Under the pieces are notes generated by a model. That model saw only the letters and a program-made list of their open reading frames with translations. It was not told the DNA's origin and did not search any database. Below are positions 18,483 through 41,741 of a stretch of DNA of 64,000 nt, one piece after another. Position numbers and translations under genes: made by a program. How positions within the stretch are numbered: the first letter of the stretch is position 1; every line of letters starts with the position of its first letter. Origin of the DNA: Cyanobium sp. Aljojuca 7A6 (GTDB lineage: Bacteria > Cyanobacteriota > Cyanobacteriia > PCC-6307 > Cyanobiaceae); the NCBI RefSeq assembly GCF_024346455.1, contig NZ_JAGQCY010000006.1, forward strand, positions 124,001 to 188,000, read 5' to 3'.

Positions 18483-19022
18483 TCAGTTCATGCAGGCGTC
18501 CGTCAGGGAGTGGAGGGTCTGGACCTGGCCCGGCGAGAGGGCGAAGCTCAGATCTCCGGCGGAACTCGGCACCGTGATCTTCAGGGGCAGGCCATCGGCA
18601 GGGGTCGGATCGAGGCAGCCGGCGTCGAACTGGGAGGAGGTGGCCGGAATTGCGCCACCGACAGAGGCCGTGAGCTCAGCGCTGCGGTTGGCGAGACTCC
18701 AGTTCTGATCCTTGCCATCACTGAGCCGCAGAGGTCGGGAGTGGTCCAGGCTCAGCTTGGGCGACTCCGCATTCAGCCGGATGCGCAGACCCTTGGCCGC
18801 GTTGATGTCTGACGATTCGTAGAGCATGCCGCCGAGGCGGTGCCCCGCGCCGTCATCCAGATTCCAGTTGCCATCGGTATCAGCGGCTGAGGCGGTGGGT
18901 GGCGACAGGAGCGAGGCCAGCACGAACAGTCCGACCGCCACGATCCCGGCACGGCCGATGCCGACAAGGCGGCGCCAGGGCGTCATCACCATGGAGGCGA
19001 ATAAAGCAAGAATTCTTTTCAT
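18483..19022 (-). CDS. Secreted DUF3122-like protein, copy 1
   Basis: A 179-residue exported protein: signal or anchor peptide (GIVAVGLFVLASLLS...ASA, about residues 25-47), then a compact domain of about 130 residues. It is clearly homologous to the products at 21741-22247 and 41742-42275; shared blocks are DDGAGHRL, GLRIRLNAE, LDHSRPLRLSDG, WSLANRSAEL and SQFD. From memory this matches the cyanobacterial family DUF3122, of unknown function; I could not check. The predicted location is periplasm or thylakoid lumen. Two Cys (in GCLD and DACMN) are unique to this copy. The gene lies between sbcD and sqr, on the same strand as both. Confidence 0.75.
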   Translation of the reverse strand: MKRILALFASMVMTPWRRLVGIGRAGIVAVGLFVLASLLSPPTASAADTDGNWNLDDGAGHRLGGMLYESSDINAAKGLRIRLNAESPKLSLDHSRPLRLSDGKDQNWSLANRSAELTASVGGAIPATSSQFDAGCLDPTPADGLPLKITVPSSAGDLSFALSPGQVQTLHSLTDACMN

Positions 19023-19310: not shown

Positions 19311-20606
19311 TCAAGTCTCACGGCGCGCCAGCCCCAGGGCACGCACCAAGGGCCCGAACGGCTTGAGGAAGCGGCTTTCGTGAAGGCGCCCCTTGAGCAC
19401 CCGGTGCCAGTACACCCAGGGGAACACCCGCGTTTCCACCAGGAACATGCTCCAGCGCTCCTTGGTGGGATCCACCAGGAAGGAACTCACCGGCTGGAGG
19501 CTGTAGTCGAATTCCGCCATCACCACATCGTGGAAGCTGGTGATCAGGGGGCAGGCGGTGTAGCCGTCGTACCGGGCCCTCAGCGGGTCGCCATCGAGCC
19601 GGGCCAGCAGGTTGGCCACCAGCACCGGAGCCTGGCCGCGCACGGCGGCCAGGCTCTTGGCCGTGGGCAGCGAACTCACGTCGCCGAGGGCGAACACGTC
19701 GCCAAAGCGTTTGTGCTGGCAGGTGAATCGATCGACCTCCACCCAGCCCCCCGGCCCGGCGATCGCCAGGGGGCTGGTGGCGATCACCTCCGGCGCCGCC
19801 ATCGGGGGCACCACGTGCAGCAGGTCGTAGGGGATCTCCTCGCGGCGGGGTTCCTGGCCCTCGGCCAGCACCTCAAAGACGGCCACCCGCTCCTCGGCGC
19901 GCACCTCGATCAGGTTGTGGAGCAGGCGGGTCTCGATGCCTCGGCGCGCCACGACGCGCTCGACGCTGGCGTTGTAGGCCGCCACCGGATACAGCTGCGG
20001 CTGGGCGCTGCAGAAGATCACATGCGTGTTCACGCCCACCCCACTGGTGGCCTGGAAGATGTCGTCGGCCAGGTACATCACCTTCTGGGGGGCACCGCCG
20101 CATTTGATCGGTGTGGCGGGATGGGTGAACAGGGCCGTTCCACCACGGAAGTCGCGGATCGCCTTCCAGGTGGCGGCGATGTGGGGGTGGGAGTAGTTGC
20201 TGACGACGCCGTGCTGGCCGAGGGCCTGCGGCAGGCCCTTGATGCGGCTCCAGTCGAGCTTCAGCCCCGTCGCCACCACCAGCACCTCGTAGCTGAGGGC
20301 GACCCCGGCGGCGGTGATCACCCGGCGGGCTTCCGGCTCGAAGCAGGCAGCGCTGTCCCGGATCCAGACGGCACCGGCCGGGATCACGGCGGCCTCGGGC
20401 CGCTGGGTCTGGGCGTAGGGGAGCAGGCCGGCGCCGGCCAGGATCCAGCCGGACTGATAGGCGTGAAGGGCCGCGGGCTCCAGGATCGCCACGTCCAGGC
20501 CGGGGCGGGCGCGCAGCAACTGGGCGGCGACGGTGATCCCGGCGGAGCCGCCACCCACGATCAGAACCCGGTGGTGGCGATGGTCTTCCGATGCAGCAGC
20601 AGCCAT
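19311..20606 (-). CDS. sqr: Type II sulfide:quinone oxidoreductase
   Basis: Oxidises sulfide to zero-valent sulfur or persulfide and passes the electrons to plastoquinone at the membrane face. 431 residues with an FAD-binding Rossmann motif VLIVGGGSAGITVA, VVATGLKLD and FALGDVSSLP. Two features mark the type II class, like the mitochondrial enzyme: TPIKCGGAPQKVMYL with a redox Cys near residue 169, and GYTACPLITSFHD with a second Cys near residue 352. A membrane-binding amphipathic C-terminus is plausible (WYHR-type tail, FGPLVRALGL). The gene diverges from a KirBac channel gene across 126 bases. It is the first step of the sulfide pathway completed by genes at 22.2-27.7 kb. Confidence 0.9.
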   Translation of the reverse strand: MAAAASEDHRHHRVLIVGGGSAGITVAAQLLRARPGLDVAILEPAALHAYQSGWILAGAGLLPYAQTQRPEAAVIPAGAVWIRDSAACFEPEARRVITAAGVALSYEVLVVATGLKLDWSRIKGLPQALGQHGVVSNYSHPHIAATWKAIRDFRGGTALFTHPATPIKCGGAPQKVMYLADDIFQATSGVGVNTHVIFCSAQPQLYPVAAYNASVERVVARRGIETRLLHNLIEVRAEERVAVFEVLAEGQEPRREEIPYDLLHVVPPMAAPEVIATSPLAIAGPGGWVEVDRFTCQHKRFGDVFALGDVSSLPTAKSLAAVRGQAPVLVANLLARLDGDPLRARYDGYTACPLITSFHDVVMAEFDYSLQPVSSFLVDPTKERWSMFLVETRVFPWVYWHRVLKGRLHESRFLKPFGPLVRALGLARRET

Positions 20607-20640
20607 CTCCCCATCACGCCAGGGGCTTCACTCTGGGTGG

Positions 20641-20732
20641 ACGCGATGACGATCCGTAGTGATGCACACATAAATTCATGCGCACAGACGCATAGACGGA
20701 TAGAATCAGAGACCAGCGTCAGAGTCAGGCCG
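20641..20732. promoter_or_regulatory. Divergent sqr/KirBac control region with direct repeats
   Basis: AT-richer spacer between two divergent genes. ACGCATAG followed directly by ACGGATAG (about 20688-20703) is a tandem 8-base repeat with one mismatch. ATGCACACA and ATGCGCACA (about 20662 and 20678) form a second direct repeat around ACATAAATTCATG. Such repeats may be binding sites for a regulator serving both genes, but no known operator is recognised. Confidence 0.35.
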
Positions 20733-21659
20733 ATGGCTCCAGCTCAGCGGCCTGCGCCTCTGCCCCCTGTGGCCGCGCCGGAGCGGCTCTTGAAGCACGG
20801 AGGCATCTTCACCGCCGTGAATCCGGGGGACTGGATCCGCCATTGGCGCCATCCCAATCACCTGATGCTGGCGGTGCCCTGGCCGGGCTTTTTCGGGTTG
20901 ATCGCCGCCGGGTATCTGCTGCTCAACATCCTCTTTGCCCTGCTCTACCAGCTCGACCCCCATGGCATCGCCGGGGTGGTGGGTGAAGCGACCCGTTTCT
21001 CGGAGGCCTTCTTCTTCAGCGTGCAGACCCTGGGCTCGATCGGCTACGGCGTCTTTCACCCCACCAGCCTGTTCACCCACCTGGTCGTCACGGTCGAATC
21101 CCTGCTGGGACTGATCGTGATCGCCCTGATGACGGGGATGGCGTTCAGCCGCTTCTCCCGTTCCACCGCGCGGATCCTGTTCTCCGAGGTGGTCACCGTG
21201 CACGATTACGACGGACGGCCCACCTTGATGTTCCGCCTGGCCAACGAGCGCCGCAAAACGATCCTGGAGGCCAGGGTTCAGGCCTATCTCGCCATCGATG
21301 AGCGCACGACGGAGGGGCACAGGATGCGACGCCTGCATCCGCTGGCCCTGAGTCGCGATCGCTCACCGCTGTTTCTGCTCGCCTGGACGGTGATGCATCC
21401 CATTGACGACGCCAGCCCCCTGCATGGACGCACGCTTAGCCAGCTGGCCGAGCGTCAGGCGGAAATCCTGATTGCCTTCAGTGGCATCGACGAAACCCTG
21501 GAGCGCCCGATCTATGCCCACCACAATTTCTCGGCCTCCCAGATGCTGTTCGGCCAGGGCTTTCTGGACATGATGCGGGAGGACGACGGTCAGGGTCCGA
21601 GCTTCGATTTCGCCAATTTCAACCTCACGCACCCCTGTCCTTCGGAGGGGCCGGTCTGA
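20733..21659 (+). CDS. Inward-rectifier-type potassium channel (KirBac family)
   Basis: A K+ channel of 308 residues. Order of parts: slide helix (DWIRHWRHPNHLMLAVPWPGF), outer helix (about residues 48-70), pore helix and filter FFFSVQTLGSIGYGVF with the K+ signature GYG, inner helix (LVVTVESLLGLIVIALMTG), then the cytoplasmic immunoglobulin-like Kir domain (VVTVHDYDGRPTLMFRLANE, ILEARVQAYL). The ATG at 20733 is chosen because the family starts shortly before the slide helix; an in-frame ATG at 20647 is possible. The filter residue after GYG is Val where many KirBac proteins have Asp. It diverges from sqr and is followed by a DUF3122-like gene. Base composition is slightly lower in GC than average. 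Confidence 0.88.
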   Translation: MAPAQRPAPLPPVAAPERLLKHGGIFTAVNPGDWIRHWRHPNHLMLAVPWPGFFGLIAAGYLLLNILFALLYQLDPHGIAGVVGEATRFSEAFFFSVQTLGSIGYGVFHPTSLFTHLVVTVESLLGLIVIALMTGMAFSRFSRSTARILFSEVVTVHDYDGRPTLMFRLANERRKTILEARVQAYLAIDERTTEGHRMRRLHPLALSRDRSPLFLLAWTVMHPIDDASPLHGRTLSQLAERQAEILIAFSGIDETLERPIYAHHNFSASQMLFGQGFLDMMREDDGQGPSFDFANFNLTHPCPSEGPV

Positions 21660-21740
21660 ACGGGGCGCTGCCGCGCAGAGATGGTCAGCTTTCATGTGTT
21701 AATCGCGCTAGTGTTTTATCGTCAATCTGGGCTGTCCGTC

Positions 21741-22247
21741 ATGTCCCGTTCCTGCCGCCGTCCCTGCCTGCTGAGGAAGTCGGTTCTGGCCCTCCTCCCC
21801 TGGCTGTTGGTCTTCCTGGCGGGAGCCGCCCCTGCCCTGGCGGCCGAAGGCTGGTCCCTCAATGATGGGGCGGGTCATCGGCTCAATGCCAGGGTCTTTG
21901 AGCAGCCGTTTCCCGAGTACCCCTCCGGCCTGCGCCTCCGCCTCAATGCCCTGGAGAGCAGCACGCGGCTGGATCACCAGGAGGAGCTGGTGTTGAGCGA
22001 TTCCTCAGGCCAGGAATGGAGCCTGCCCAACCGCAGCGAGGAGCTGGTGGAGAAGGGCCGTGGGCCCATCCCCCCCGGCTCGGCCCAGTTCGACCTGGAG
22101 GCCCTGATGCCCCGGCCCAGTGAGGCCCTGCCGCTGCATGTCGCCGTGCCTTCGGCCGAAGGGGTCCTGGGTTTCGACCTCACACCCGATGAGGCGATGG
22201 CGCTCCACGCCATGGCGTCCGTGGCCCGTGGCGGTGATCAGGCCTGA
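21741..22247 (+). CDS. Secreted DUF3122-like protein, copy 2
   Basis: A 168-residue exported protein with a signal peptide ending in APALAA (about residue 35) and the same domain as copies 1 and 3 (NDGAGHRLNARVFEQ, GLRLRLNAL, EWSLPNRSEELV, SAQFDLEALMPRPSEALPL). It lacks the two Cys of copy 1. Its nearest relative here is copy 3, with which it shares the PRPS.ALPL block. The ATG at 21741 begins a normal signal peptide. It follows the KirBac gene on the same strand, and its 3' end overlaps the convergent rhodanese gene by 10 bases. Function unknown; location beside sulfide genes is the only hint. Confidence 0.75.
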   Translation: MSRSCRRPCLLRKSVLALLPWLLVFLAGAAPALAAEGWSLNDGAGHRLNARVFEQPFPEYPSGLRLRLNALESSTRLDHQEELVLSDSSGQEWSLPNRSEELVEKGRGPIPPGSAQFDLEALMPRPSEALPLHVAVPSAEGVLGFDLTPDEAMALHAMASVARGGDQA

Positions 22248-22729
22248 GCGGTCCCGGACCCGTCTGAGCCTGAGACGGCCTCGCCGGCGGCCTGCCAGCC
22301 GGCGAGGCTTGGCGGAAAGCCCCGCACCTGGCTGTAGCCCTGCAGCTGCAGGGCCATCACCCCCATGGCCGATCGAAAGCCTGTGGAGCAATAGAGGACG
22401 ATCTCCTTGTCTGTCGGGATGTCGCTGAGGTGTTCATCGAGGTCCCTCAAGGGGATGTTGACGGCCCCGATGATGTGGCCGGCTCGGTACTCCGAAGGCT
22501 GGCGCACATCGATCAGCAGGGCGTTGCCACTGGCCATCACTTTTTTGAGGGCTGGAACCGTCCTGATCGTGTGGAAGTCTGCGGGCAGGGAATGGAGATA
22601 CTGATCAATCGTTCCCTGCAAGGGAGAGCTCCCCTGTGGTTCGGCCGCGGCTGAACCCGACCCACCGCCCACGAGCAGCAGCAGGACGAGGACAAGGACG
22701 CTGAGCGCCTGGGGCAGGGAGGTTCGCAT
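22238..22729 (-). CDS. Exported single-domain rhodanese
   Basis: A 163-residue sulfurtransferase with a signal peptide (residues 1-28, LSVLVLVLLLLVGGGSGSAA) and one rhodanese domain. The active-site loop is LYCSTGFRSA with the catalytic Cys, and LLIDVRQPSEYRAGHIIGAV is the upstream signature. It probably moves sulfane sulfur to a thiol or cyanide acceptor in the periplasm or lumen. The start at 22729 is chosen because it begins the signal peptide; the frame stays open further upstream. It lies 71 bases downstream of cydB on the same strand and may be part of the cydAB transcript, which ties sulfur handling to the oxidase. Confidence 0.87.
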   Translation of the reverse strand: MRTSLPQALSVLVLVLLLLVGGGSGSAAAEPQGSSPLQGTIDQYLHSLPADFHTIRTVPALKKVMASGNALLIDVRQPSEYRAGHIIGAVNIPLRDLDEHLSDIPTDKEIVLYCSTGFRSAMGVMALQLQGYSQVRGFPPSLAGWQAAGEAVSGSDGSGTAQA

Positions 22730-22800
22730 GGGTCCGGGTTTCGGGAGGACGTTCAAGGCGCAAGGCTTACCGTCTGAGGGACTGGGATCCATGTGCAGGT

Positions 22801-23814
22801 TCAGACCTGGTCGGGTTCGGCATCGACCTTGCCACTGAAGGCGATGTAGTTGTAGATGTTGTAAAAGAGCATGATCGGAATCAGAACGCCGATGAAGGTG
22901 AGCATGAACACCATCGACGTCACGGAAGAAGAGGCTTCGAAGATAGTGATCGAGGGCGGAATGATCGCCGGAAACACCATCACCCCCAGACCCGCGAAGC
23001 TGAGAACGAACAGCAGGACCGTATAGACGAACGGCCACACCTCCTGGCCCAGGGAGAGGCTGCGGAACAGCTGCACGATCAGGGCGATGCCCAGCAGGGG
23101 CAGGAGCACGAAGAAGGGCAGAAAGGCCGGATCAAACAGGCGCGCCCGCAGCGTTTCCGACACGAAGGGGGAGGTGGCCGTGATCAGCAGAGCCCCCCCC
23201 AGGGTGGTGGCTGCCGCCAGCCGGGCGGTGCGCACGTGCAGTTGCTGCAGCTCACCACTCGTTTTGAGGATCAGGTAGGTGGAGCCGATCAGCACATAGC
23301 CCTGGATCAGGGTGAGGGCCACCACCAGGCTGCTGCCGTTGACCCAGATCCAGGGGGAGCCGATGAAGTGCCCATCGGCGTCGGTGGGCAGGCCAGAGAG
23401 CACCGTGCCCAGGCAGATCCCCTGGGACGCCGCGGCCAGCAGGCTGCCGAAGCCGAAGGTGAGGTTCCAGGGACGCTTGTCGATGGCGTTCTCGCGGAAC
23501 TCGAAGGCCACCGCCCGCAGGATCAGGCCAAGGATCATCAGGTAGATCGGCCCGTACAGGGCCTTGAGGATCGTGCCGTAGGCCAGGGGAAAGGCACCGA
23601 ACAGCGCCCCGCCCATCAGCACCAGCCAGGTTTCGTTGGCGTCCCAGATGGAGCCGAGCGAGGCCATCAGCAGCGTGCGCTGCTTCTCGCTGGGGGAGGT
23701 GAGCGACAGGATCCCCACCCCCAGATCAAAGCCATCGAGGATCACGTAGAGGAGCAGGAACAGGGCCAGGATCACGAACCAGACCACCGGCATGAAGACA
23801 TCGAGGAAGTCCAT
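22801..23814 (-). CDS. cydB: Cytochrome bd ubiquinol oxidase subunit II
   Basis: Membrane subunit of a bd-type quinol oxidase, 337 residues with about eight or nine helices. Typical CydB features are VWFVILALFLLLYVILDGFD at the N-terminus (quinol oxidase II signature YxxLDGFDLG) and SLGSIWDANETWLV. Together with CydA it oxidises quinol and reduces O2 with high affinity without pumping protons. The family is resistant to sulfide and cyanide compared with haem-copper oxidases, which fits the neighbours. The ATG at 23814 overlaps the cydA stop; open frame upstream is antisense-like extension inside cydA. Confidence 0.93.
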   Translation of the reverse strand: MDFLDVFMPVVWFVILALFLLLYVILDGFDLGVGILSLTSPSEKQRTLLMASLGSIWDANETWLVLMGGALFGAFPLAYGTILKALYGPIYLMILGLILRAVAFEFRENAIDKRPWNLTFGFGSLLAAASQGICLGTVLSGLPTDADGHFIGSPWIWVNGSSLVVALTLIQGYVLIGSTYLILKTSGELQQLHVRTARLAAATTLGGALLITATSPFVSETLRARLFDPAFLPFFVLLPLLGIALIVQLFRSLSLGQEVWPFVYTVLLFVLSFAGLGVMVFPAIIPPSITIFEASSSVTSMVFMLTFIGVLIPIMLFYNIYNYIAFSGKVDAEPDQV

Positions 23815-25220
23815 CAGTCGGCCGGCAGGGGGAGCGGCCCGCGGACGGGACCGGTGGGTGGGTCCAGGGTGAGATCGGGACCCTTGCGGATGAGGCGGGC
23901 GCCGAAGACGAGCGCGAACACCAGCAGGACGCCGTAGAGCACTGCGAAGCTGCTCAGGCTGATCAGCACTTCCTGGGCCGGCAGCTGGGAGGCGGCCTCG
24001 GAGGTGCGCAGCTGGCCGTACACCGTCCAGGGCTGCCGGCCGACGCAGCGCACGATCCAGCCCGACTCGATGGCCAGGTAGCCGGCCGGTGCGGCCAGGA
24101 TCCAGCACCAGCTCAGCCAGGCCTGGCGGCGGAAGAATTCGGGCGTCAGGCCGGTGCGCCACCACAGCAGCACGGTCAGGCCCATCAGGGCGGCGACGGC
24201 GACGCCGATCCCCGCCATCAGGCGGAAGGCGTAGAAGATCAGCCCGACCATGCGGGGACGCTGGTCGGCGGGCCAGCTGTTCAGGCCGCGCACGTCCTGG
24301 CTGAGCCGGGGCCGGCCTTCGAGGATCCAGCTGAGCCCGCCGGGCAGGCCCACCGCCCAGCGGTTGCGGCCGCCGTTCTCATCGGGCGCGACGATCACGG
24401 TCCAGGGGGGAGCCTCGCCGGCGGCTTGGTTCTCCCAGATCGCCTCCATGGCGGCCAGCTTGGTGGGCTGGTGCTCGGCGACCTGCAGGCCGCTTTCGTG
24501 GCCCGCCACGATCTGAAGGGGAGCCACCACCAGCAGGACCACCAGGGCCAGGCGGAAGGAGAAGGAGAAGAACTCCTCCGCCTTGCCGGAGAGCAGCGAC
24601 CAGGCGCTGATCGCCGCCACCACCAGCATCGAGGTTTCCACCGTGGCCAGGCTCATGTGCAGCACGCTGCGCAGCATGAACGGGTTGTTGATGGCGGTGA
24701 AGTAGTTCTCCACGTGGAAATGGCCGTCGCTGAAGCTGCCGCCAGCCGGGGTCTGCAGCCAGGAATTGGCACTGAGGATCCAGAACACCGAGAGATTGGC
24801 GCCGAAGGCCACCATCACGGTGGAGAGGAAATGGATCACCGGCGGCACCCGGTTCCAGCCGAACAGCATGATGCCGAGGAAGCCGGCCTCGAGCATGAAG
24901 GCCATGGCGCCTTCGAAGCCGAGCACGGCCCCGAAGAAATCACCCACGAACTCCGACAGCGGGGCCCAGTTGGTGCCGAACTGGAACTCCATCGGCAGCC
25001 CCGAGGCCACGCCGATGCCGAAGTTCAGCACGTAGAGCTTGGCCCAGAAGCGGGCCTGCCGGTAGTAGAGGGGGTTCTGGGTGCGCAGCCAGAGGGCTTC
25101 GAGGATCACCAGAAAGATCGCCAGGCCGGTGGAGAGCACCGGCCAGAGCATGTGGAAGATCGCCGTCAACGCGAACTGCATTCGCGAAAGAACGACGGTG
25201 TCGGCAAGCCAGTCCATCAA
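23814..25220 (-). CDS. cydA: Cytochrome bd ubiquinol oxidase subunit I
   Basis: Haem-carrying subunit, 468 residues. Visible features are the N-terminal RMQFALTAIFHMLWP with a haem-ligand His, FLGIMLFGW, ESGLQVAEHQPTKLAAMEA in the quinol-binding loop, and GRQPWTVYGQLRTSEA near the C-terminus. The Q loop is short, as in cyanide-insensitive (CIO) type oxidases of cyanobacteria. Acting with CydB it serves respiration on the thylakoid or cytoplasmic membrane at low oxygen or when the aa3 enzyme is blocked, for example by sulfide. First gene of the run cydA-cydB-rhodanese. Confidence 0.94.
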   Translation of the reverse strand: MMDWLADTVVLSRMQFALTAIFHMLWPVLSTGLAIFLVILEALWLRTQNPLYYRQARFWAKLYVLNFGIGVASGLPMEFQFGTNWAPLSEFVGDFFGAVLGFEGAMAFMLEAGFLGIMLFGWNRVPPVIHFLSTVMVAFGANLSVFWILSANSWLQTPAGGSFSDGHFHVENYFTAINNPFMLRSVLHMSLATVETSMLVVAAISAWSLLSGKAEEFFSFSFRLALVVLLVVAPLQIVAGHESGLQVAEHQPTKLAAMEAIWENQAAGEAPPWTVIVAPDENGGRNRWAVGLPGGLSWILEGRPRLSQDVRGLNSWPADQRPRMVGLIFYAFRLMAGIGVAVAALMGLTVLLWWRTGLTPEFFRRQAWLSWCWILAAPAGYLAIESGWIVRCVGRQPWTVYGQLRTSEAASQLPAQEVLISLSSFAVLYGVLLVFALVFGARLIRKGPDLTLDPPTGPVRGPLPLPAD

Positions 25221-25344
25221 GTCACCGCCACGATGTGTAAGGGCTCAGATCCTGGAGTGAAAGAATGCAATGAAATGCCGGGATCACGATGCCGTTGCGA
25301 GCGGATGAACACATGGAGCGCGCCTTCCTGCCCATGCTGGAGTC

Positions 25345-25992
25345 ATGACCCCCTCCATACCGACAGCCACCGCTGAGCCAGGCCACTGGGACCAGCGCTA
25401 CCGGCAGGGCGCCGACGGCTGGGAGCTGGGCCGGCCGGCTCCGCCGCTGGAGCGGTTCCTGCGCAGCCATCCCCTGGCCCCCCGGCCCCCGGGCCCCGTG
25501 CTGGTGCCGGGCTGCGGCCGCGGCCATGAGGCCGCCCTGCTCGAAGAGCTCGGCTTCAGTGCCATCGGCCTGGATTTCAGCGGCGAGGCCATCGGAGAAG
25601 CCCGTGCCCGCCATGGCTCTGAGCGGGCCGATCTGCGCTGGCTGCAGGCCGATCTGTTTGACCAGCAGGCCCTGGACGCGGCGGGTCTTGTGCCCGGAAG
25701 CCTGACGGGGATCGTGGAGCACACCTGCTTCTGCGCCATTGATCCGGCCCGCCGCGACGACTACATCGCCACCGTCTGTCGGCTGCTGGCGCCGGGCGGC
25801 TGGCTGCTGGGACTGTTCTGGTGCCACCGCAAGCCGGGGGGGCCGCCCTGGGGCAGCGCCCCCGAGGTGGTGGCCGCCCAGCTGGGCCAGGCGGGGCTGG
25901 TGGCCGAGCTCTGGGAGCCGGCCGCCGGTTCGGTGGACCAGCGCCAGGACGAATGGCTGGGCCTGTGGCGCCTCAGCTCCCCCCAGCCCTGA
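25345..25992 (+). CDS. TPMT-family S-adenosylmethionine thiol methyltransferase
   Basis: A 215-residue class I methyltransferase of the thiopurine/thiol methyltransferase family. Features are HWDQRYRQGADGWELGRPAP at the N-terminus (typical of this family), the SAM-binding loop VLVPGCGRGHEAALL, the acidic LDFSGEAI, and VEHTCFCAID. Relatives methylate thiols, sulfide, halides or tellurite; the placement between cytochrome bd and rhodanese/persulfide dioxygenase genes suggests sulfide or thiol methylation here, which is inference. It starts 124 bases from the divergent cydA and its stop touches the stop of the convergent rhodanese gene. Confidence 0.85.
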   Translation: MTPSIPTATAEPGHWDQRYRQGADGWELGRPAPPLERFLRSHPLAPRPPGPVLVPGCGRGHEAALLEELGFSAIGLDFSGEAIGEARARHGSERADLRWLQADLFDQQALDAAGLVPGSLTGIVEHTCFCAIDPARRDDYIATVCRLLAPGGWLLGLFWCHRKPGGPPWGSAPEVVAAQLGQAGLVAELWEPAAGSVDQRQDEWLGLWRLSSPQP

Positions 25993-26526
25993 TCAGAGCG
26001 ACACCCGGTTCCAGGGCAGGACGGCCAGCAGACGGGCCATGCCGCAGAAGCCGGAGACGCCGGCGAAGGTGAGCCCGGCCCCCACGAAGCCACTCAGCCA
26101 GATCCAGCCCGGGGCCACGGTCTGGGACAGGATCACGCCCAGCAGAACCAGGCTGCCGGCGACGATCTGCACCTGGCGCATCAGCGGCAGCGGCGCCCCC
26201 TTGAGCTTGCGCACCGGGAAGCCGGCCTGCTGCCAGGCGGGCACGCCACCGAGCAGATCGGTGACGGGGTGGGGGTGGCCCTGCTGGAGCAGCTGGGACA
26301 GGCCCTTGCTGCTGCGGTTGCCGCTCTGGCAGACCAGCACCAGTGGACGGCGGGGCAGATCGGCTTGGGTGAGTCGGGAGAGGGGGACGTTGAGGCTGCC
26401 GGCGATGTGGCCGGTGGCGAACTCCATCGGTTCGCGCACATCGATCACGCTGACCTCACCGGCCGCCAGCCGGTCGGCGAGGTCGTGGGCGCTGAGGCGG
26501 CTGGGGGTGGCCGTGGTGGTGGTCAT
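25993..26526 (-). CDS. Rhodanese fused to DUF2892 membrane domain
   Basis: A 177-residue protein (an ATG at 26535 would add three residues). The N-terminal 100 residues are a rhodanese domain with VSVIDVREPMEFATGHIAGS and the active-site loop LVCQSGNRSS. The C-terminus is a two-helix membrane unit (about residues 118-165), like DUF2892 and the YgaP layout. It would present a sulfurtransferase at the cytoplasmic face of the membrane. It lies 40 bases downstream of the persulfide dioxygenase gene on the same strand, so an operon is likely. Confidence 0.88.
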   Translation of the reverse strand: MTTTTATPSRLSAHDLADRLAAGEVSVIDVREPMEFATGHIAGSLNVPLSRLTQADLPRRPLVLVCQSGNRSSKGLSQLLQQGHPHPVTDLLGGVPAWQQAGFPVRKLKGAPLPLMRQVQIVAGSLVLLGVILSQTVAPGWIWLSGFVGAGLTFAGVSGFCGMARLLAVLPWNRVSL

Positions 26527-26566
26527 GGACGTCAAAGGGTTGGAGGTGGAAAGGGTGGGGAGCGCT

Positions 26567-27688
26567 TCAGGCCTGGACGACGCCGTCGAGGGGGAAGCCC
26601 TCGGCGGCCCAGCGGCTCAGGCCGCCATGGAGGTTGGCGACCTGCTGGCGGCCGGCCTTGAGCAGCTGCTGGGTGGCCAGGGCCGAGCGGCTGCCGGAAT
26701 GGCAGACCACCACCAGCGGGCGATCGGTGGGGATCTCAGCGGAGCGGCTCTCCAACTCCGGCAGGGGGATCAGCAGGCTGCCGGCCACGCGCCCATCAGG
26801 ACCGTCGAACTCCTCGGCGGAGCGCACATCCAGCACGGTGACGTCGCCGCGGTGGGCGGCCACCCAGGCCGGGCTGAGTTCGGGCAGTCCGGCATAGCTG
26901 CGGGCCATGGGCGCCCAGGCGGGTGCGGCGCTGGCCTCGCGGGGCTTGCCGGAGCGCATGTTGCCGGGCAGGGCCTGGGCGATCCGGTGGGGATGGGGCA
27001 GGCGCATGTTCTCCATGTGGCCCACGAAGTCCCGCTCGGTGGCGTTGCCGCCCAGGCGGGCGTTGAAGGCCTTTTCCTCGGTGACGGAGGTGACGTGGCG
27101 GCCGGTGTAGTCGTGGCCGGGGTACAGCAGGCAGTGATCCGGCAGGGTCAGGATCTGTTCGGTGATCGAGGCCCAGAGGGTGTGGGCGTTGCCCTGCTGG
27201 AAGTCGCAGCGGCCGCAGCCACGCACCAGCAGCGCATCGCCGGTGAAGGCCATCGTGTGGTCGTCGAGGACGAAGGTGAGGCAGCCGTCGGTGTGGCCGG
27301 GGGTGGCGCGCACCTCTACGTGGCGGCCGCCGAAGAGGACCCGATTGCCGTGGCTGAGGGGCCGGGTGACGTTCTCGGCGCCGACGCAGGCGGCCAGGCC
27401 GATGGCGCAGCCGGTGGCCTCGTGCATCAGCCAGCTGCCCGTCACGTGGTCGGCATGGGCATGGGTGTCGATCGCGGCCACCAGCTCGACCCCCAGCTCG
27501 CGGATCAGGGAGAGATCGCGGTCGTGCTCCTCAAAGACCGAATCGATCAGCAGGGCCTTGCGGCTGGCCACATCCACCAGCAGGTAGGTGAAGGTGCCGG
27601 TCTCGGCGTCGAACAGCTGACGGAACAGCAGCGGGGCGCCCCCGGCAGCGGCGGCGAGGGAGAGGCAGGGCGCGGGCGCGACAGCCAT
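26567..27688 (-). CDS. Persulfide dioxygenase-rhodanese fusion (ETHE1-like)
   Basis: A 373-residue two-domain enzyme. The N-terminal 250 residues are a metallo-beta-lactamase fold of the ETHE1/persulfide dioxygenase class: FTYLLVDVASRKALLID, metal motif DTHAHADHVTGSW, RATPGHTDGCLTFV, TGDALLVRGCGRCDF and YPGHDYTGR. The C-terminal 110 residues are a rhodanese domain with active-site loop VVCHSGSRSA. It should oxidise glutathione persulfide to sulfite, and the rhodanese part can exchange sulfite and persulfide with thiosulfate. It is the natural partner of the SQR at 19311-20606. Its promoter carries a palindrome at 27706-27731. Confidence 0.9.
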   Translation of the reverse strand: MAVAPAPCLSLAAAAGGAPLLFRQLFDAETGTFTYLLVDVASRKALLIDSVFEEHDRDLSLIRELGVELVAAIDTHAHADHVTGSWLMHEATGCAIGLAACVGAENVTRPLSHGNRVLFGGRHVEVRATPGHTDGCLTFVLDDHTMAFTGDALLVRGCGRCDFQQGNAHTLWASITEQILTLPDHCLLYPGHDYTGRHVTSVTEEKAFNARLGGNATERDFVGHMENMRLPHPHRIAQALPGNMRSGKPREASAAPAWAPMARSYAGLPELSPAWVAAHRGDVTVLDVRSAEEFDGPDGRVAGSLLIPLPELESRSAEIPTDRPLVVVCHSGSRSALATQQLLKAGRQQVANLHGGLSRWAAEGFPLDGVVQA

Positions 27689-27705: not shown

Positions 27706-27731
27706 CTGTTATGAGTATAGCCGCATAACAG
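27706..27731 (-). promoter_or_regulatory. Promoter with 8+10+8 palindromic operator upstream of persulfide dioxygenase gene
   Basis: CTGTTATG (27706-27713) and CATAACAG (27724-27731) form a perfect 8-base inverted repeat with a 10-base spacer. Read on the minus strand, the spacer holds TATACT (27719-27714), a good -10 element, so a bound repressor would cover the promoter. The gene starts 18 bases further on (27688). Sulfide-responsive repressors of the ArsR family (BigR, SqrR) control such genes elsewhere; no regulator gene is in the window. Confidence 0.6.
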
Positions 27732-27739
27732 TGGATCGA

Positions 27740-28204
27740 TCACGTGGATGCTGGAACCGCCGCCGAGCTCAGTAGTTTCTGGACGATGGCCACGCCGCTG
27801 ATCGCCTGCCAGCCGAACAGCAGCAGCACGCCGCCGTTGAGCGCGATGTGCAGGCCCCGGGCCCAGTCCTTGCCCTTCTGCAGGGAGGGCCCCAGGGAGG
27901 CCGTGGCGATCACGAGCGTGGCAACGGCCAGGCCGACGAACAGGTGCGGACCGAGGATCAGCTTGCCGTTCTTCAGGAACGTGGCCCCCATCCCGCCGGC
28001 GGCACCGAGCAAGGTGAGGCCCAGGATCACCAGCCCAAGCTGGCCATGGCGCTGGGCGTAGCGCAGCGGCAGCATCGCCTTGCGTTCCTCCGGCCCCACC
28101 TTGCGGATCTGGCTGGATTTGAGGCCGAGATAGCCCGAATAGAGCATCAAGCCCAGCAGCCCCCACATCAGGACGGGGTGGACGAAGTTGAGGGCGAAGG
28201 GCAT
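27740..28204 (-). CDS. DUF4079-type membrane protein
   Basis: A 154-residue protein with four hydrophobic helices (about residues 8-25, 52-72, 80-100 and 115-138). Conserved-looking His residues sit in helices (NFVHPVLMW, AQRHGQLG, LGPHLFVG, LHIALNGG), as in b-type cytochromes, which suggests but does not show haem binding. From memory it matches the cyanobacterial and plastid family DUF4079. The ATG at 28204 is favoured over upstream in-frame codons because hydrophobic sequence begins there. It stands upstream of the persulfide dioxygenase promoter on the same strand. Confidence 0.72.
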   Translation of the reverse strand: MPFALNFVHPVLMWGLLGLMLYSGYLGLKSSQIRKVGPEERKAMLPLRYAQRHGQLGLVILGLTLLGAAGGMGATFLKNGKLILGPHLFVGLAVATLVIATASLGPSLQKGKDWARGLHIALNGGVLLLFGWQAISGVAIVQKLLSSAAVPAST

Positions 28205-28319
28205 GACACCGGGGCGAGGGAATGGATCCGCGCCGGCGGCATCCACCCCACTCTCAGCAGGGGTTCCTGGGCTGATTCCGCAGCCAACCTGGAGATTGCC
28301 GGCCGCCGTGATCAGCGCC

Positions 28320-28967
28320 TCAGGGCGCCAGCCGCTCGATGGTCCAGGCAGGCTCGGCGGGCCGGTAGCGGAAGCGATCGTGCAGGCGGTTGGTGCGGCC
28401 CTGCCAGAACTCGAACTCGAACGGCACCACCCGCAGCCCGCCCCAGGCCGGCGGCAGCGGCACCTCGCCATCGGCGAAGCGGCGCTGCATGGCGGCCCAC
28501 TGCATCTCCAGGATCGAGCGGGAGCCGATCACAGCGCTCTGCTGCGACACCCAGGCCCCCAGCCGGCTGCCGACGGGGCGCGAGAGGAAGTAGGCCAGCG
28601 ATTCGGCGCCGCTGATCCGCTCGGCCCGGCCCAGGATGGCCACCTGCCGCTCCAGCCCGTACCAGGGAAACAGCAGGCTCACCTCCGGATGGGCGCCGAT
28701 CTCGGTGGCCTTGCGGCTCTCGTAGTGGGTGAAGAAGACGAAGCCCCGTTCGTCGAAGGCCTTGAGCAGCACGGTGCGGGCGCTGGGGCGCACGCCATCG
28801 GTGGTGCCCAGCACCATGGCGTTGGGCTCCTCCAGAGCGGCGGCCACCGCCTGATCAAACCAGCGGCGGAACTGTGCCACCGGATCGTCGGCCAGATCCC
28901 CCCGCCGCAGGGCGGCGTTGCGGTAGTCGCGGCGCAGCTGGGCGGGGTCGGTGGGGGTGGGGGGCAT
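28320..28967 (-). CDS. pdxH: Pyridoxamine 5'-phosphate oxidase
   Basis: Oxidises pyridoxine- or pyridoxamine-5'-phosphate to pyridoxal phosphate with FMN and O2; 215 residues, the normal length. Seen: [37 protein letters not shown] (FMN contact), [20 protein letters not shown], and the C-terminal signature [20 protein letters not shown] ending near RLHDRFRY with RLAP at the terminus. The start overlaps the stop of the PIN-domain toxin gene by one base, so it may be transcribed with that toxin-antitoxin pair. Confidence 0.95.
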
Positions 28968-29419
28968 CAGGTGGGGATCAGGCGCAGGGCGGCGCTGCCG
29001 CCGGCCACGGCCCCGCAGCCCAGGCGGCGGTCGAAGCTCACCAGCGTGCCGCCGTGGTGCACCGCCAGGGCCAGGAGATAGGTATCGGTGAGTTGCCCCG
29101 CCTCCAGCAGCTGCGCGGCGTCGACAAGGGGAGTTGCGCCCCCCGGTGCGGCGAGCAGGCTGATGGCATCGGGCCAGAAGTGGTGGCGTGGATGGCGGAT
29201 CAGCTCCCGCATCAGGGGCGTCACCACCGCCGGTGGCCCCGGGCTGTTGGGGTAGCGGGGCTGGCCGAGGATCCGCAGCACCGCGTTCTGGGTGAGCGGG
29301 CAGGTGGCCCAGCCCAGGTCCTGGGAGGTGGCGAACCAGTCGTGGGCCTGGTCATGGTGCACATGGCGCCCGTCCAGCAGGGCGATCAGAACGTTCACAT
29401 CCAGCAGGGCTGCGCTCAC
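28967..29419 (-). CDS. vapC: PIN-domain toxin (VapC type)
   Basis: A 150-residue PIN-domain ribonuclease, toxin of a type II toxin-antitoxin pair. The first acidic residue is in [10 protein letters not shown], further acids are in [10 protein letters not shown] and LVSFDRRL. In the segment [12 protein letters not shown], Gln stands where most PIN toxins have the second catalytic acid (TEN); some members of this subgroup also vary here. Its start overlaps the antitoxin stop by four bases and its stop overlaps the pdxH start. VapC toxins usually cut tRNA or the sarcin-ricin loop; the target here is unknown. Confidence 0.87.
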
Positions 29420-29661
29420 GGCAGTTCGTCGCGCAGGCTGTTGACCAGCTCGAGGTCCACCGGCGCGCCCTGCGGCTGCCAGGGCAGCAGGGGCAAGCCG
29501 TTGCGGTGGCTGGGACCGGTGCTGGCGGTGCCTCGGGGCGGGGCCACCAACCCCTGGCGGGCCAGCGCGCTGATCACGGCCCCCAGGCTGGTGCGCTTCT
29601 GCCGGGCCAGCACCCGGGCCGCTGCCAGCACGTCGTCATCGAGCTGCAGGGTGGTGCGCAT
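29416..29661 (-). CDS. vapB: Ribbon-helix-helix antitoxin (VapB type)
   Basis: An 81-residue antitoxin from the ATG at 29661. The N-terminal RTTLQLDDDVLAAARVLAR is a ribbon-helix-helix DNA-binding domain, and the C-terminal part (about residues 45-81) would wrap the PIN toxin. An in-frame ATG at 29679 gives six more residues. It is expected to repress its own promoter together with the toxin. The ATGA overlap with vapC gives translational coupling. Confidence 0.85.
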   Translation of the reverse strand: MRTTLQLDDDVLAAARVLARQKRTSLGAVISALARQGLVAPPRGTASTGPSHRNGLPLLPWQPQGAPVDLELVNSLRDELP

Positions 29662-31501: not shown

Positions 31502-32911
31502 ATGCCCGATCAGGAGCACCTCGACGACTTCCTGGAAGCCCTGGAATCGGCCGGCAGCCCCGCCAGAAACCCGGCCCTGCGGGAGGCGCTTGGCTGGGAG
31601 GAGGCCCTCTACGAAGAGGTGAAGGCGGAACTGGTGGCCAAGGGGATCGTCGTGCGCGGCCGAGGCCGCAGCGACAGCGTGTCCCTGGTGGGAGCCAAGC
31701 CGGTGGCGCCACAGGCCGCGCCCGCCAAAGCCCCCCGCAAAGGAAAAGCCGCCAGCAACGGCACCGCCAACCTGGGCTTCGAGGCCAAGCTCTGGCTCAC
31801 GGCCGACAAGCTGCGCAACAACATGGACGCGGCCGAATACAAGCACGTGGTGCTCGGCCTGATTTTTCTGAAATACATCTCCGACAGCTTCGAAGAGCAC
31901 CGCGCCAAGCTGCTGGCCGGCGTTGGCGACTACGAGGGCGCCAACCCGGAAGACCCCGACGAATACAAGGCCGAGAACGTGTTCTGGGTGCCGGCCGAGG
32001 CTCGCTGGAGCCACCTGCAGGGCCAGGCCAAAGAGCCCACGATCGGCAAACTGGTGGACGGCGCCATGGTGGCGATCGAGCGCGACAACCCTCGCCTCAA
32101 GGGGGTGCTGCCGAAGGACTACGCCCGTCCGGGGCTCGACAAGCAGCGCCTGGGGGAGCTGATCGATGTGATCGCCACGATCGAACTCACTGCTTCCAGT
32201 GAGAGCGGCGCCAGCGAGGGGGAGCAGACCCATCGCTCGGTGGATCTGCTGGGCCGGGTATACGAATATTTCCTCACCCGCTTTGCGTCAGCCGAGGGCA
32301 AGAACGGCGGCCAGTTCTACACACCGAGCTGTGTGGTGCGCTGCCTGGTGGAGATGCTGGAGCCCTACAAGGGCCGCATCTACGACCCCTGCTGCGGCTC
32401 CGGCGGCATGTTCGTGCAGAGCGAGAAGTTTGTGGAAAGCCACGGCGGCAAGCTGGGCGACATCTCGATCTACGGCCAGGAGAGCAACGCCACCACCCGC
32501 CGCCTGGCGGTGATGAACCTGGCCCTGCGTGGCATCGAAGCCGACTTCGGCCCCGAGCACGCCGACAGCTTCCTCCGCGACCTGCATCCAGACCTGCGGG
32601 CCGACTACGTGCTCGCCAACCCGCCGTTCAAAGACTCCGACTGGTTCCGCAAGGACGACGACGTGCGCTGGCAGTTCGGCGTGCCACCCAAGGGCAACGC
32701 CAATTTCGCCTGGGTGCAGCACTTCCTCCACCACCTGGCGCCGCAGGGCATGGCCGGCTTCGTGCGCGCCAACGGCAGCATGAGCTCCAACCAGAGCGGC
32801 GAAGGCGAGATCCGCCGCGCCCTGATCGAGGCGGATCTGGTGGTCTGCATTGTGGCCCTGTTTGGCCAGCACTTCTACAGCACGCAACCTCTCGAAGCCT
32901 TCGCAGCATGA
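31502..32911 (+). pseudogene. hsdM: Type I restriction methyltransferase subunit HsdM, 3' end lost
   Basis: The N-terminal 460 residues of an adenine-N6 methyltransferase of a type I restriction system. An accessory domain (about 1-85) is followed by the HsdM helical domain ([20 protein letters not shown]) and the methylase core with [21 protein letters not shown] motif [13 protein letters not shown] and catalytic motif NPPF. Homology stops at GQHFYSTQ; the normal continuation is replaced by PLEAFAA and a stop. The C-terminal helical part, needed for HsdS contact, is missing, and no hsdS is present, so the system cannot be functional as a methylase in the usual way. The stop overlaps the start of the ATPase gene as ATGA. 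Confidence 0.85.
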
Positions 32912-35244
32912 TTCGCCGCATCAACACACTAAAGAATGTGGGCCGGTTTGCCGACCTTAGGTCTCTGAGCGGTAATCAGCATGAGTTCACTAGAGTAAAT
33001 GTTATTTACGCGCCGAATGCCTGCGGCAAAACCACGCTCTGCGATGTCTTCCGGTCACTCGGAACCGGTAACAAGGATTTCATCCTTGGGCGTAAGCGTT
33101 TCGGTTCAACAGCAGCGATTGAAATTGAGATCCTCCTCCACGGTTCGCCAACTCCAAGGGCAGTCTTTGCTCAGGATAGATGGAGATTTCAACCAGCTGG
33201 AAGCAGTGTGCAGAAGATACTCGTCTATGACGACCGTTTCGTGGCCGACAACGTTCTTGTCGGACGTTCCATCGCGGTGGAGCAGCGGCGGAATCTCTAC
33301 GGCCTCGCTCTTGGTGCCCGCGGTCAGCTTTTGAAAGCGGCGGTTGATACTGCTGAACAGGAGCTTAGTGCTGCAACAAACATGTTGAATACAGCTCGAG
33401 CTGCACTGACCCAACTGCTTCCTGCAGGGTTCACAATTGATACCTTCCGTCCATTGGTAAGGGACGACGCGATTGACCAACTCATCCAAGCAGCGACTGC
33501 TGAATTGGAAGCAGCTCGGCGAACCAAGCAAAACGCTGACTCAATTCGCCAGCGGAATGCCATGAGCATCAGTACGCCCCCTGTGATTCCAGAGGGAGTC
33601 GAGGCAGTACTAGAAACGACGCTCGATGCAGCGGCATTGCAAGCTGAGGCAAAGATTCGCCAACACCTTGAGGCCCACAGCAGTGGTTTGAGCCTCGATT
33701 GGGTTGGGCAAGGATACCGAGCCCAGATCGGCACTGGTTGCCCACATTGCGGGCAGGAGATGGGTGATTTAGACATTCTTGCCGCCTACCGTGCGTTCTT
33801 CTCAGGCGGATTACAGGATCAGCAGGCTGCTCAAGCCAGAATCGCAGACGAGGTTGAGGAAAGATTCGGCACTGGGGCTCAGCAGCGGATTAGCCAGTTG
33901 CTACGCACTCACATTGTTGAACGTGACTGGTGGAGAGATGCTGGCGGATTCTCTTTTGATTTACCAGTCTTTCTCGAAGGCGATGTGGTTTCGTCTGCGA
34001 TGGAAGCTGTCCGCTCCGCTCTTTCCCGCGCGATTCAACGCAAGCAGGCCAAGCCGGCTCAGAGAGTGGAGATGAGTGAAGCAGAGGCCGGCACTCTCGC
34101 GGCTTGGGTTGAGGTGGGTGCTCAAGTCACAAGCTATATGGACTCAATTATTCTGATCAACAACTCAATTGCCGAGCGTCAACGGACAGCAGGAAATGTT
34201 GACATGGGACCGATTGAGGAACGAATTACTTCGCTCAAGGCGCAGAAGAAACGCCATGACACAGACGTAGTCTCTGCGTTTGCTGTATTCGACGCCGCCA
34301 AGATAAGTAAACTCGATAAAGAAAGGGCCAAAGCTGCGGCGAACAACGCTCTCCGCGAGCAGTCGGAGCAGATTTTGGCAGAATATGGTGATCGAATCAA
34401 TGAACTGCTGGACCTCTTCAGGGTTGGTTTCCGCTTGGTCAGCGGAGGAGTTAATTTCCGTGGCGGTCCACCAGCCGGTGAACTCGCTGTTGAGATTCTC
34501 GGGACCCGCGTCAGCACAACGCCGGATGACGCAAGAAATCCTTCACTGCCCTCGCTTGCGAATACGTTAAGCGGGGGTGATCGAAGTGCCTTGGGTCTCG
34601 CATTCTTCGTCGCAATAGCTGAACGCGACTCCGATATCAGCAATACCATTCTTGCCTTCGACGATCCATTTCACAGCCAAGACCGGTCTCGCCGCCGCAG
34701 AACCATTGAGTGTGTTCATCGCTTAGCCGCCTTAAGCAGTCAGTGTTTCATCCTCTCGCACGAATTGGATTTTGCGCGAGAAGCGGCCCGGATTGCTCAA
34801 GTGCAGGTCAATACGTTCACCCTGGACCCAATGGCTGACCATTCACGCTTGGAAGCCAAGAACCTGCCGCCACTGCCAGGGCGTGCCTACGAGCAAGACT
34901 ACGCAAAGCTCACTGCATTTCTCGGCAACCCGACGGATTTCACGGACCAACTCAAGGATGTCGCCCGCTGCATACGTCAGTCATTGGAGGGTTATATGCG
35001 TACCAAGTTTCCCAAATCTTGTGAGGACGACGAGTGGATTGGTGGAATGATAGGAAAGATTCGTGATGCTCAGCCGGACGATGTGCTTTCGCACGCGTAT
35101 CGCCTCGTACCCGAGTTAACAGAGGTGAACGAATGGGGCAAGCGCTACTATCATGGCGAGACGGACGGATCTGGCGCTGGAGCAGTCGATGCTAATGAAC
35201 TAGTGGGATACGTCCAGCAGACGATCAGAATCATTTCTCGATGA
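32908..35244 (+). CDS. RloC/PrrC-like AAA ATPase with zinc hook and candidate anticodon nuclease domain
   Basis: An intact 778-residue protein, strikingly lower in GC than its surroundings. Order of parts: Walker [10 protein letters not shown] (residues 35-43, first Gly replaced by Ala), [16 protein letters not shown], coiled coils on both sides of a Cys-Pro-His-Cys motif (about 278-281, zinc-hook-like), ABC signature [10 protein letters not shown] (about 554), Walker [11 protein letters not shown] (about 585), H-loop FILSHE, and a C-terminal domain with R690-x3-E694 ([10 protein letters not shown]) and His749 (YYHGE). RloC and PrrC combine such ATPase parts with an Arg-Glu-His tRNA anticodon nuclease and live in type I restriction loci. 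The nuclease call is inference. Probably an abortive phage-defence protein. Confidence 0.75.
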
Positions 35245-35401
35245 CATGCTTGCGGCCATCCGATCTAGCTGAATTGACTCCGTATATTTATGGGGCCAAC
35301 ATGCTTACAAAGGAACGCTTCTTGGCTGCCTAGGCTTGCCGTATAACTCTACAAGTCCATAGAAGGTGGGGCGCCCACCAAGTTACGAAGCACTTCCTTC
35401 C
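35245..35401. other. Junction between ATPase gene and hsdR remnant
   Basis: Short AT-richer stretch after the ATPase stop. HsdR homology begins only near 35402, in the middle of the helicase region, so the 5' two-thirds of hsdR (nuclease and first helicase motifs) are absent. No inverted repeats, target duplications or transposase fragments are visible at the join, so deletion is more likely than a transposon insertion. Confidence 0.55.
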
Positions 35402-36919
35402 AGAGCAGCCGCCCTCGAAGCCCTGGTAGGCGATCCCAAGCGCCTCGCCCTGGTGGCTGCCGACCTGGTGGCGCACCTCGAAAAGCGTCTGGAGGCAATG
35501 GACGGCAAGGCGATGGTGGTCTGCATGAGCCGCCGCATCTGCGTCGATCTCTACAACGCCCTCATCCAGCTGCGGCCCGAATGGGCCACCGACACCCTCA
35601 AGGTGGTGATGACGGGCAGCGCCGACGACGGGCCCGACTGGCAGCCCCACATCCGCAGCAAGGAGGCCCGCCGCCAGCTGGCCAACCGCTTCAAAGATGC
35701 CAACGACCTCTTCAGGATCGTGATCGTGCGCGACATGTGGCTCACCGGTTTCGATGCGCCCTGCCTGCACACCATGTATGCCGACAAGCCGATGCAGGGC
35801 CACGGCCTGATGCAGGCCATCGCCCGCGTCAACCGGGTGTTCCGCGACAAGCCAGGCGGCTTGGTGGTGGATTACCTCGGCCTCGCTGACCAGCTCAAGC
35901 GGGCACTGGCCACCTACACCGAAAGCGGCGGCCGGGGCGACCCCACCGTCGACACCGCCTAGGCCATCGCCGTGATGCTCGAAAAGCACGGCATCGCCTC
36001 TGATCTCCTGCATGGTTTCGACTGGTCGGCCTGGACCAGCGGCACCCCCACCCAGCGCCTGCAGCTCCTTCCCGCTGGCCAGGAGCACATCCTTTTGCAG
36101 GAGAACGGCAAGCAACGCTGGCTGCAGGTGGTGGCCGAACTCTCCCGCGCCTTCGCTCTCTGCGCCGCCAGCGACGAGGCCACCGCGATCCGCGACGACG
36201 TGAGTTTCTTCCAGGCGTTGCTGGCCGCCCTCGCCAAGCAAACCAGCAGCACCAGCAAAACGCCCGAGCAGCTCGATGCAGCCATCCGCCAGCTGGTGAG
36301 CAAGGCCATCACCACCGAAGGCCAGGTGATCGATGTATTCACCGCCGCCGGTCTGCCCAAGCCTGACATCTCGATCCTCAGCGATCAGTTCCTCGCCGAG
36401 GTGCGTGGCCTCAAGCACAGGAATGTGGCCCCCGAGCTGTTGGAGAAACTGCTCAAGGACGAACTGAAGGTGCGCTCCAAGCGCAACCTCGTACAGAGCC
36501 AGGTGTTCTCCGAGAAGCTCAAGAAAGCCCTCAACGCCTACCACAACCGCGCCATCACCACCGCCGAGGTGATCGAAGAGCTGATCGCCCTCGCCAAGGA
36601 ACTCGATGCCGCCACCAAACGCGGCGAATCCCTCTGCCTCAGCGACGACGAGGTGGCCTTCAATGACGCCCTCGCCGCCAACGACAGCGCCGCGGCGGCC
36701 ATGGGCGACGCCAAGCTCAAAGTGATCGCCGCCGAACTGATCACCCAGGTGAAGAGGAGCGTGTCGATCGACTGGACCCTGCGCGAAGGTGCCCGCGCCA
36801 AGATCCGCGTGATGGTGAAACGCATCCTCAACAAATACGGCTACCCCCCTGATCTGCAGGAGGAGGCTGTGAAAACCGTGCTGGCCCAGGCGGAGTTGCT
36901 CTGCGCCCAGTGGGTGTAA
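35366..36919 (+). pseudogene. hsdR: Type I restriction subunit HsdR, C-terminal remnant with internal stop
   Basis: The frame 35366-36919 encodes the end of a type I restriction motor subunit: [39 protein letters not shown] (helicase motifs V-VI with [10 protein letters not shown]) and then the HsdR C-terminal helical domain ending at LCAQWV. A TAG at 35960-35962 breaks the frame between GDPTVDTA and AIAVMLEKHGIASDLLHGFD; both sides are in the same frame, so it looks like a CAG or GAG codon turned into a stop. The N-terminal nuclease and helicase motifs I-III are absent. GC content is again high here, so this is the resident locus, not part of the low-GC ATPase block. Confidence 0.85.
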
Positions 36920-39763: not shown

Positions 39764-39767
39764 GGCG

Positions 39768-40418: not shown

Positions 40419-40474
40419 GGGTCGGCGGCTCCGGACGAGGGGGTTGAGACGGACGGACAGGCTGAAATGGGAAA

Positions 40475-40498
40475 CGGGCCCGGAGCAGTCCGGGCCCG
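40475..40498 (-). terminator. Rho-independent terminator after psbA
   Basis: CGGGCCCGGA (40475-40484) and its perfect complement TCCGGGCCCG (40489-40498) make a 10-bp GC-rich stem with a 4-base loop. Read on the minus strand the stem is followed by TTTCCCATTTC. It lies 46 bases after the psbA stop. Confidence 0.8.
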
Positions 40499-40543
40499 GC
40501 AGGGGCTCAGCGAGGGGTCGGCTGGGCGGGGTTCAAAGCCCCA

Positions 40544-41709: not shown

Positions 41710-41741
41710 GCGTTGAATCATCCCCGGTTGCGACTCTGCCC

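Follow-up and report, generated by a model that had tools for sequence, protein, structure and literature searches.

The oxidation of sulfide by way of persulfide is itself a known pathway. In Escherichia coli, the genes of Synechococcus sp. PCC 7002 for a sulfide:quinone oxidoreductase (SQR) and a persulfide dioxygenase (PDO) turn sulfide into sulfite and thiosulfate, and 54 of 130 cyanobacterial genomes hold both (PMC7042703). We describe here a block of genes at positions 19311-27688 of a 64,000-nucleotide stretch from Cyanobium sp. Aljojuca 7A6 (G000:C31:124001-188000, which we call the window), whose genome comes to 3.13 Mb in 34 contigs. The core activities we predict from these genes are those of PCC 7002. 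Unlike PCC 7002, the block has its PDO fused to a rhodanese and clustered with SQR; the cluster also takes in a further pair of rhodaneses, cytochrome bd and a K+ channel. What is added to the known pathway is a larger island and a candidate regulon tying sulfide oxidation to cytochrome bd and to an alternative Rieske protein (PetC).

Three further systems invite comparison. The original prediction for this DNA, made from the sequence letters, likened the block to mitochondrial sulfide oxidation (SQOR, ETHE1, TST and SUOX). The likeness holds for SQR, which is of the SQOR type, for the PDO, which has the ligand residues of ETHE1, and for the rhodaneses; it ends at sulfite oxidase, which the block lacks (on another contig, C18, there is a PF00174 protein). 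The mitochondrial system also differs in that here the PDO is fused to a rhodanese and a TauE exporter is encoded elsewhere in the genome. In bacteria, Blh of Xylella is a PDO-rhodanese fusion under the persulfide-sensing repressor BigR, and the cst operon of Staphylococcus aureus joins a persulfide-sensing repressor to a PDO and a type II SQR (PMC9995734). Islands in relatives of our strain likewise combine a repressor with a PDO-rhodanese, and the type II SQR is as in cst. TauE-type exporters occur in both the BigR/Blh and cst systems, and CstR belongs to a different repressor family. Unlike either, the island has links with cytochrome bd and with components of photosynthesis, and our strain carries ArsR and TauE on a separate contig.

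The third comparison is with mat cyanobacteria, for which passages of Grim and Dick (2016, PMC5061849) place low-oxygen psbA genes (group 2/3) and arsR near sqr, an arrangement much like the one described below. Those passages do not bring in PDO, TauE, cytochrome bd, Tll0287 or a shared operator, and the text does not name Cyanobium. Within the open-licence literature we found no report of an SQR-PDO island in picocyanobacteria; for freshwater picocyanobacterial genomes, only extra rhodaneses are mentioned (PMC9361551).

The block and its enzymes

All the enzymes named in the original prediction are present as intact open reading frames (ORFs) where it had placed them, within 19311-27688. Two divergent genes in the block had gone unmentioned, one for a KirBac-type K+ channel (Kir) and one for a DUF3122 protein. 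Identities come from Pfam and PDB searches of the window's ORFs, with TIGR cut-offs where given. The features, including two operator-like sites discussed later, are as follows.

19311-20606, minus strand: type II SQR (human SQOR type), 431 amino acids; PDB 6oi5
20676-20695, no strand: degenerate operator-like site, differing from TTATG-N10-CATAA at 2 positions, between the starts of SQR and Kir
20733-21659, plus strand: KirBac-type inward-rectifier K+ channel, divergent from SQR; Pfam IRK_C E 5.6e-19, Ion_trans_2, IRK
21741-22247, plus strand: exported DUF3122 protein; PF11320 E 1.8e-7
22238-22729, minus strand: exported single-domain rhodanese; Pfam Rhodanese E 4e-19
22801-23811, minus strand: cydB, cytochrome bd subunit II; Pfam E 3.6e-84, TIGR00203 above cut-off
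23814-25217, minus strand: cydA, cytochrome bd subunit I; Pfam E 1.9e-151
25345-25992, plus strand: TPMT-family (thiol/halide) methyltransferase; PF05724 E 2.8e-19
25993-26535, minus strand: rhodanese with YgaP-type membrane anchor (DUF2892, YgaP_TM); PF00581 E 2.4e-18, PF11127 E 1.6e-8
26567-27688, minus strand: PRF, an ETHE1-type persulfide dioxygenase with a C-terminal rhodanese fusion; BpPRF 5ve3
27709-27728, no strand: exact operator-like inverted repeat TTATG-N10-CATAA, 21-40 bp upstream of PRF

SQR matches human SQOR (PDB 6oi5) with 355.7 bits (E 3.7e-105) over 407 amino acids, residues 10-416; its score is only 52 bits against the type I SQR 3hyv and 62 bits against FCSD. It contains the FAD motif VGGGSAG. 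C169 and C352 align with the redox cysteines of SQOR, and all 33 homologues compared have both; together with the full-length similarity, this bears out the proposed type II enzyme with two redox cysteines. Within the family, the SQRs form one clade (support 100/99) of two paralogue groups, and this genome has one of each. By the SQR gene, the closest named relatives are Cyanobium sp. N5-Cardenillas, Synechococcus sp. CCY 0621 and Aphanothece. We considered a recent foreign origin of SQR and rejected it, because the picocyanobacterial sequences make up that single clade. Contigs filed under metagenome-assembled genomes of Chitinophagaceae and Sphingopyxis (L088, L109) carry Cyanobium-type SQRs that are 83-87% identical, and L088 also bears much of the island; these filings are probably binning errors.

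PRF aligns with the Burkholderia fusion BpPRF (5ve3) in a single alignment over 15-365, near its full length, at 53% identity and E 1.4e-122. Aligned with ETHE1 (4chl), its H76, H132, D151 and R160, the Fe ligands and catalytic arginine of the dioxygenase, are invariant in 34 of 34 sequences; they correspond to human ETHE1 H79, H135, D154 and R163, at a constant offset of three. The C-terminal rhodanese domain (PF00581 at 273-363) keeps its active C329 in 25 of 26. The predicted fusion thus stands. Most other cyanobacterial PDOs are 36-49% identical to PRF, against the 53% of BpPRF, and PRF may be of proteobacterial origin.

The two separate rhodaneses are also as predicted, by Pfam and by their active cysteines: Cys114 (in YCSTGFRSA) of the exported protein, which has a signal-like N terminus, and Cys69 of the YgaP-type protein are each kept in 32 of 32. 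The methyltransferase is a more qualified case. It belongs to the TPMT superfamily and matches the PDB entry "Thiol methyltransferase 1" (9h0d, E 8.1e-20); at the level of the thiopurine S-methyltransferase equivalog, its 27.6 bits fall far short of the cut-off of 223.

Both subunits of cytochrome bd, CydA and CydB, match their Pfam families, and CydA aligns with the bd oxidase structures 6rko and 7nkz and has the GRQPW motif at residue 393, in agreement with the prediction. Sulfide inhibits heme-copper oxidases, and sulfide resistance is known of other bd oxidases; by analogy, this one may be resistant too. As for the function proposed for the set, from sulfide to persulfide to sulfite and thiosulfate, gene identities and catalytic residues suggest that it is probably right in outline.

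The island in relatives

Our family survey covered 151 genomes. SQR is in 42, PRF in 55 and cydA in 11; all 42 of the SQR genomes have PRF, and all 11 with cydA have both. Many named strains of Cyanobium, Synechococcus, Aphanothece and Vulcanococcus carry SQR and PRF, while the non-matching genomes listed are mostly small (1.3-2.4 Mb). With the pair in 42 of 151 genomes, the suggestion that such genes are not a usual feature of picocyanobacteria fails for this clade.

The genes are grouped well beyond chance. Set against uniform random placement, with kinship ignored, SQR and PRF are no more than 10 kb apart in 18 of 42 genomes (0.66 expected; 8 genera). The same holds for SQR and cydA in 9 of 11 (0.19 expected; 6 genera), and for SQR and Tll0287 in 13 of the 20 genomes that have both (0.28 expected). 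The order in the window is pdxH, PRF, rhodanese, methyltransferase, cydAB, rhodanese, DUF3122, Kir, SQR, DUF3122 and sbcDC. Aphanothece minutissima CCALA 015 has the same order, as does A. saxicola except that cydAB is absent, and the divergent SQR/Kir arrangement is common to many relatives; otherwise gene order differs greatly. The original prediction had proposed a survey of Cyanobium genomes and would have fallen if the genes were scattered in relatives and not induced by sulfide; the clustering and repeated order mean that they are not scattered.

In other relatives the island is larger. It runs DUF3122 / D1' - DUF4079 - Tll0287 - alternative Rieske (PetC) / Kir / SQR / ArsR / PRF - rhodanese - TauE - OsmC-like - ... 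cydAB - rhodanese, with the DUF4079 gene between D1' and Tll0287. In our strain ArsR, the sulfite exporter TauE and the OsmC-like protein are together on contig C18, so the set in the block, which had been called complete, is not. The OsmC-like protein (L115:11597-12031) has two cysteines and matches PF02566 below the cut-off (E 2.6e-4); its gene adjoins TauE here and in most relatives. Also adjoining ArsR-TauE on C18 (L115:8324-9656) are a PF00174 molybdopterin oxidoreductase, of the sulfite-oxidase superfamily, and a cytochrome b561, together a candidate for the missing sulfite-oxidation step. A TauE match inside the window (contig positions 149985-150263) we discarded as an artefact: the query ORF runs into the rhodanese gene.

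Other components of the larger island lie elsewhere in the window.

27740-28252, minus strand: DUF4079 membrane protein; PF13301 E 2.8e-38
39771-40418, minus strand: Tll0287-like heme protein; PDB 5b82 Tll0287 E 7.3e-59
40547-41623, minus strand: psbA for the low-oxygen D1' isoform; A80/L158/A286 signature

The D1'-Tll0287 pair (39771-41623) is about 12 kb from the block. At 39233-43551, the genes for D1', the Tll0287-like protein and a cytochrome b561 follow one another, and divergent beside them are a DUF3122 gene and one for a sigma-70-type sigma factor; the window has three DUF3122-like proteins in all (21741-22247 and the paralogues at 18483-19022 and 41742-42275). Where the positions are covered, island-adjacent D1 genes of the family all have A80 and L158, and all but one (S286) have A286; the genome's other D1 genes have G80, F158 and, where covered, T286. 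We take A80/L158/A286 to be the signature of D1'. The D1' of the window retains the C-terminal HERN...DLA motif that holds Mn ligands. D1' is the microaerobic form, and the role of photosystem II with low-oxygen D1' is called unclear in a review; a study cited in that review associates the hemoprotein Tll0287 with PsbA2 (D1') photosystem II (PMC4582080).

Mixed islands of this kind recur elsewhere in the phylum. In one distant cyanobacterium (G405, L145:3060-19403), Tll0287, DUF4079, an alternative Rieske protein, PDO and a rhodanese surround a D1 that lacks the C-terminal HERN motif and is probably a rogue-type D1.

A shared operator-like repeat and a candidate regulator

Comparison of intergenic stretches yielded a 20-bp inverted repeat, TTATG-N10-CATAA, for which we found no earlier report in the open-licence literature. 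The window has one exact copy (27709-27728), and 100 shuffles have none. On C18 the space between ArsR and TauE has a 9/10 copy (0.02 expected). Across 33 loci (our own C18 and 32 from relatives), 53 sites match in at least 9 of 10 positions, where chance would give 1.35, and nearly all of them precede PRF/ArsR, SQR/Kir, cydA/DUF3122 or the alternative Rieske gene. Relatives carry 9/10 sites at the SQR/Kir position where the window has its degenerate copy. The motif was first read off some of these 33 loci, so a hold-out count used loci of relatives from which it had not been read. It gave 31 sites, most of them ahead of SQR/Kir, PRF/ArsR, cydAB and the alternative Rieske gene, against 0-7 for permuted arms (same letters, other orders) and 0-3 for other spacings; the loci are mutually related, so that the sites are not independent events. 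Control loci gave none in 112 kb. We restricted motif counts to the family, because lower G+C outside it raises chance matches. What emerges is a shared candidate operator, new here, before several sulfide genes and before parts of respiration and photosynthesis.

From gene position and co-occurrence we infer that ArsR binds this repeat, and in our reading the sites mark a sulfide regulon under ArsR control. All 28 ArsR sequences share two conserved cysteines, the first of which aligns with C41 of SqrR. In SqrR, a tetrasulfide between C41 and C107 lowers DNA binding (PMC9995734). By analogy, ArsR is a candidate persulfide sensor.

What the island may be for

We think it likely that the block is a sulfide-detoxification island with a switch controlled by ArsR and persulfide. 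SQR would oxidize H2S, passing electrons to the plastoquinone pool and handing the sulfur to a thiol such as glutathione, which thereby becomes a persulfide. From this persulfide PRF, with its fused domains, and the two rhodaneses would make sulfite and thiosulfate, with TauE, from elsewhere in the genome, exporting the sulfite. Cytochrome bd would reoxidize the quinol with O2, still working while sulfide inhibits heme-copper oxidases. Persulfide would also modify the two cysteines of ArsR, which would leave the repeats, and the genes would come on.

Several observations weigh against this picture. In the window strain ArsR is outside the block, on C18 beside TauE; no ArsR gene was found within or beside the operon in the window, though many relatives' islands have one. 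The second ArsR cysteine comes 7 residues before the position of SqrR C107, so the chemistry of SqrR cannot be assumed for ArsR. At SQR/Kir (20676-20695) the window's copy of the repeat has two mismatches, and 1.87 such matches are expected in the window. We looked for a copy ahead of the window's cydA and ahead of D1' and found none at either, so D1' is linked by position only. And the parts are able to function separately: 13 family genomes have PRF but no SQR, and our strain has its second SQR paralogue on contig C4.

That independence of PRF would also suit a block that mainly handles the cell's own sulfur (cysteine breakdown, sulfane-sulfur homeostasis, signaling), with external sulfide a minor concern. 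Rhodaneses and an OsmC-like thiol protein fit sulfane-sulfur handling, and the SQR of PCC 7002 oxidizes endogenous sulfide and sets sulfane-sulfur levels even in aerobic growth (PMC7042703). The linkage to cytochrome bd, D1'-Tll0287 and the alternative Rieske protein points instead to a low-oxygen, sulfidic environment, and we regard a mainly internal role as unlikely. Could the same linkage mean anoxygenic photosynthesis, in which SQR sends electrons from sulfide by way of an altered chain, with the alternative Rieske protein, into photosystem I, while D1' is in use when water splitting is restrained? Relatives have D1', Tll0287 and the alternative Rieske protein beside SQR, and the Rieske gene has the motif. 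Passages in the literature tell of a microaerobic psbA near sqr in mat cyanobacteria (PMC5061849) and report PCC 7002 as capable of anoxygenic photosynthesis (PMC12466478). Our SQR is of type II, however, whereas type I is tied to anoxygenic growth in Geitlerinema, in a passage of PMC5061849. An O2-consuming PDO and a bd oxidase fit aerobic detoxification, no match to the island's alternative Rieske protein was found in the window, and D1', with its Mn-ligand motif, should still split water. We give this role a slightly smaller chance than the internal one.

That the genes are chance neighbors in a plastic genome, and no functional unit, might be argued from the varied gene order among relatives and the parts split between contigs in our own strain. 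Clustering far above random expectation across genera, and a shared motif before separate transcription units even where these are split, as on C18, largely refute it; we consider it very improbable.

Beyond detoxification, a bolder proposal takes in the whole Cyanobium clade: a sulfide-switched rewiring in which a persulfide-sensing ArsR would induce SQR, PDO, the alternative Rieske protein of b6f, cytochrome bd and the K+ channel, alongside D1' and Tll0287. We offer it tentatively, as a possibility somewhat more apt to fail than to hold. If true, the rewired chain would let photosynthesis and respiration continue in sulfidic water, and many Cyanobium-clade picocyanobacteria would be prepared for such water, a point of relevance to stratified lakes and to low-oxygen zones as these spread. 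For testing there are now a candidate regulator, a candidate operator of 20 bp and a defined list of genes. The repeated placement of D1' beside sulfide-oxidation genes also makes its role directly testable in cultured strains that bear the island, such as Synechococcus sp. SynAce01 and CCY 0621.

Two minor observations concern the rest of the window. Adjoining pdxH is a VapBC-like gene pair (28967-29658), our own reading of the sequence, with no match in the defense library; some relatives keep the pair beside the island. Further on, 32908-36919 has a lower G+C content (0.54-0.62, against about 0.70) and contains an AAA_13/PDC-S06-like candidate defense gene and an ORF whose similarity to a type I restriction enzyme is confined to the C-terminal 300 residues of that enzyme; it is a probable defense-island remnant.

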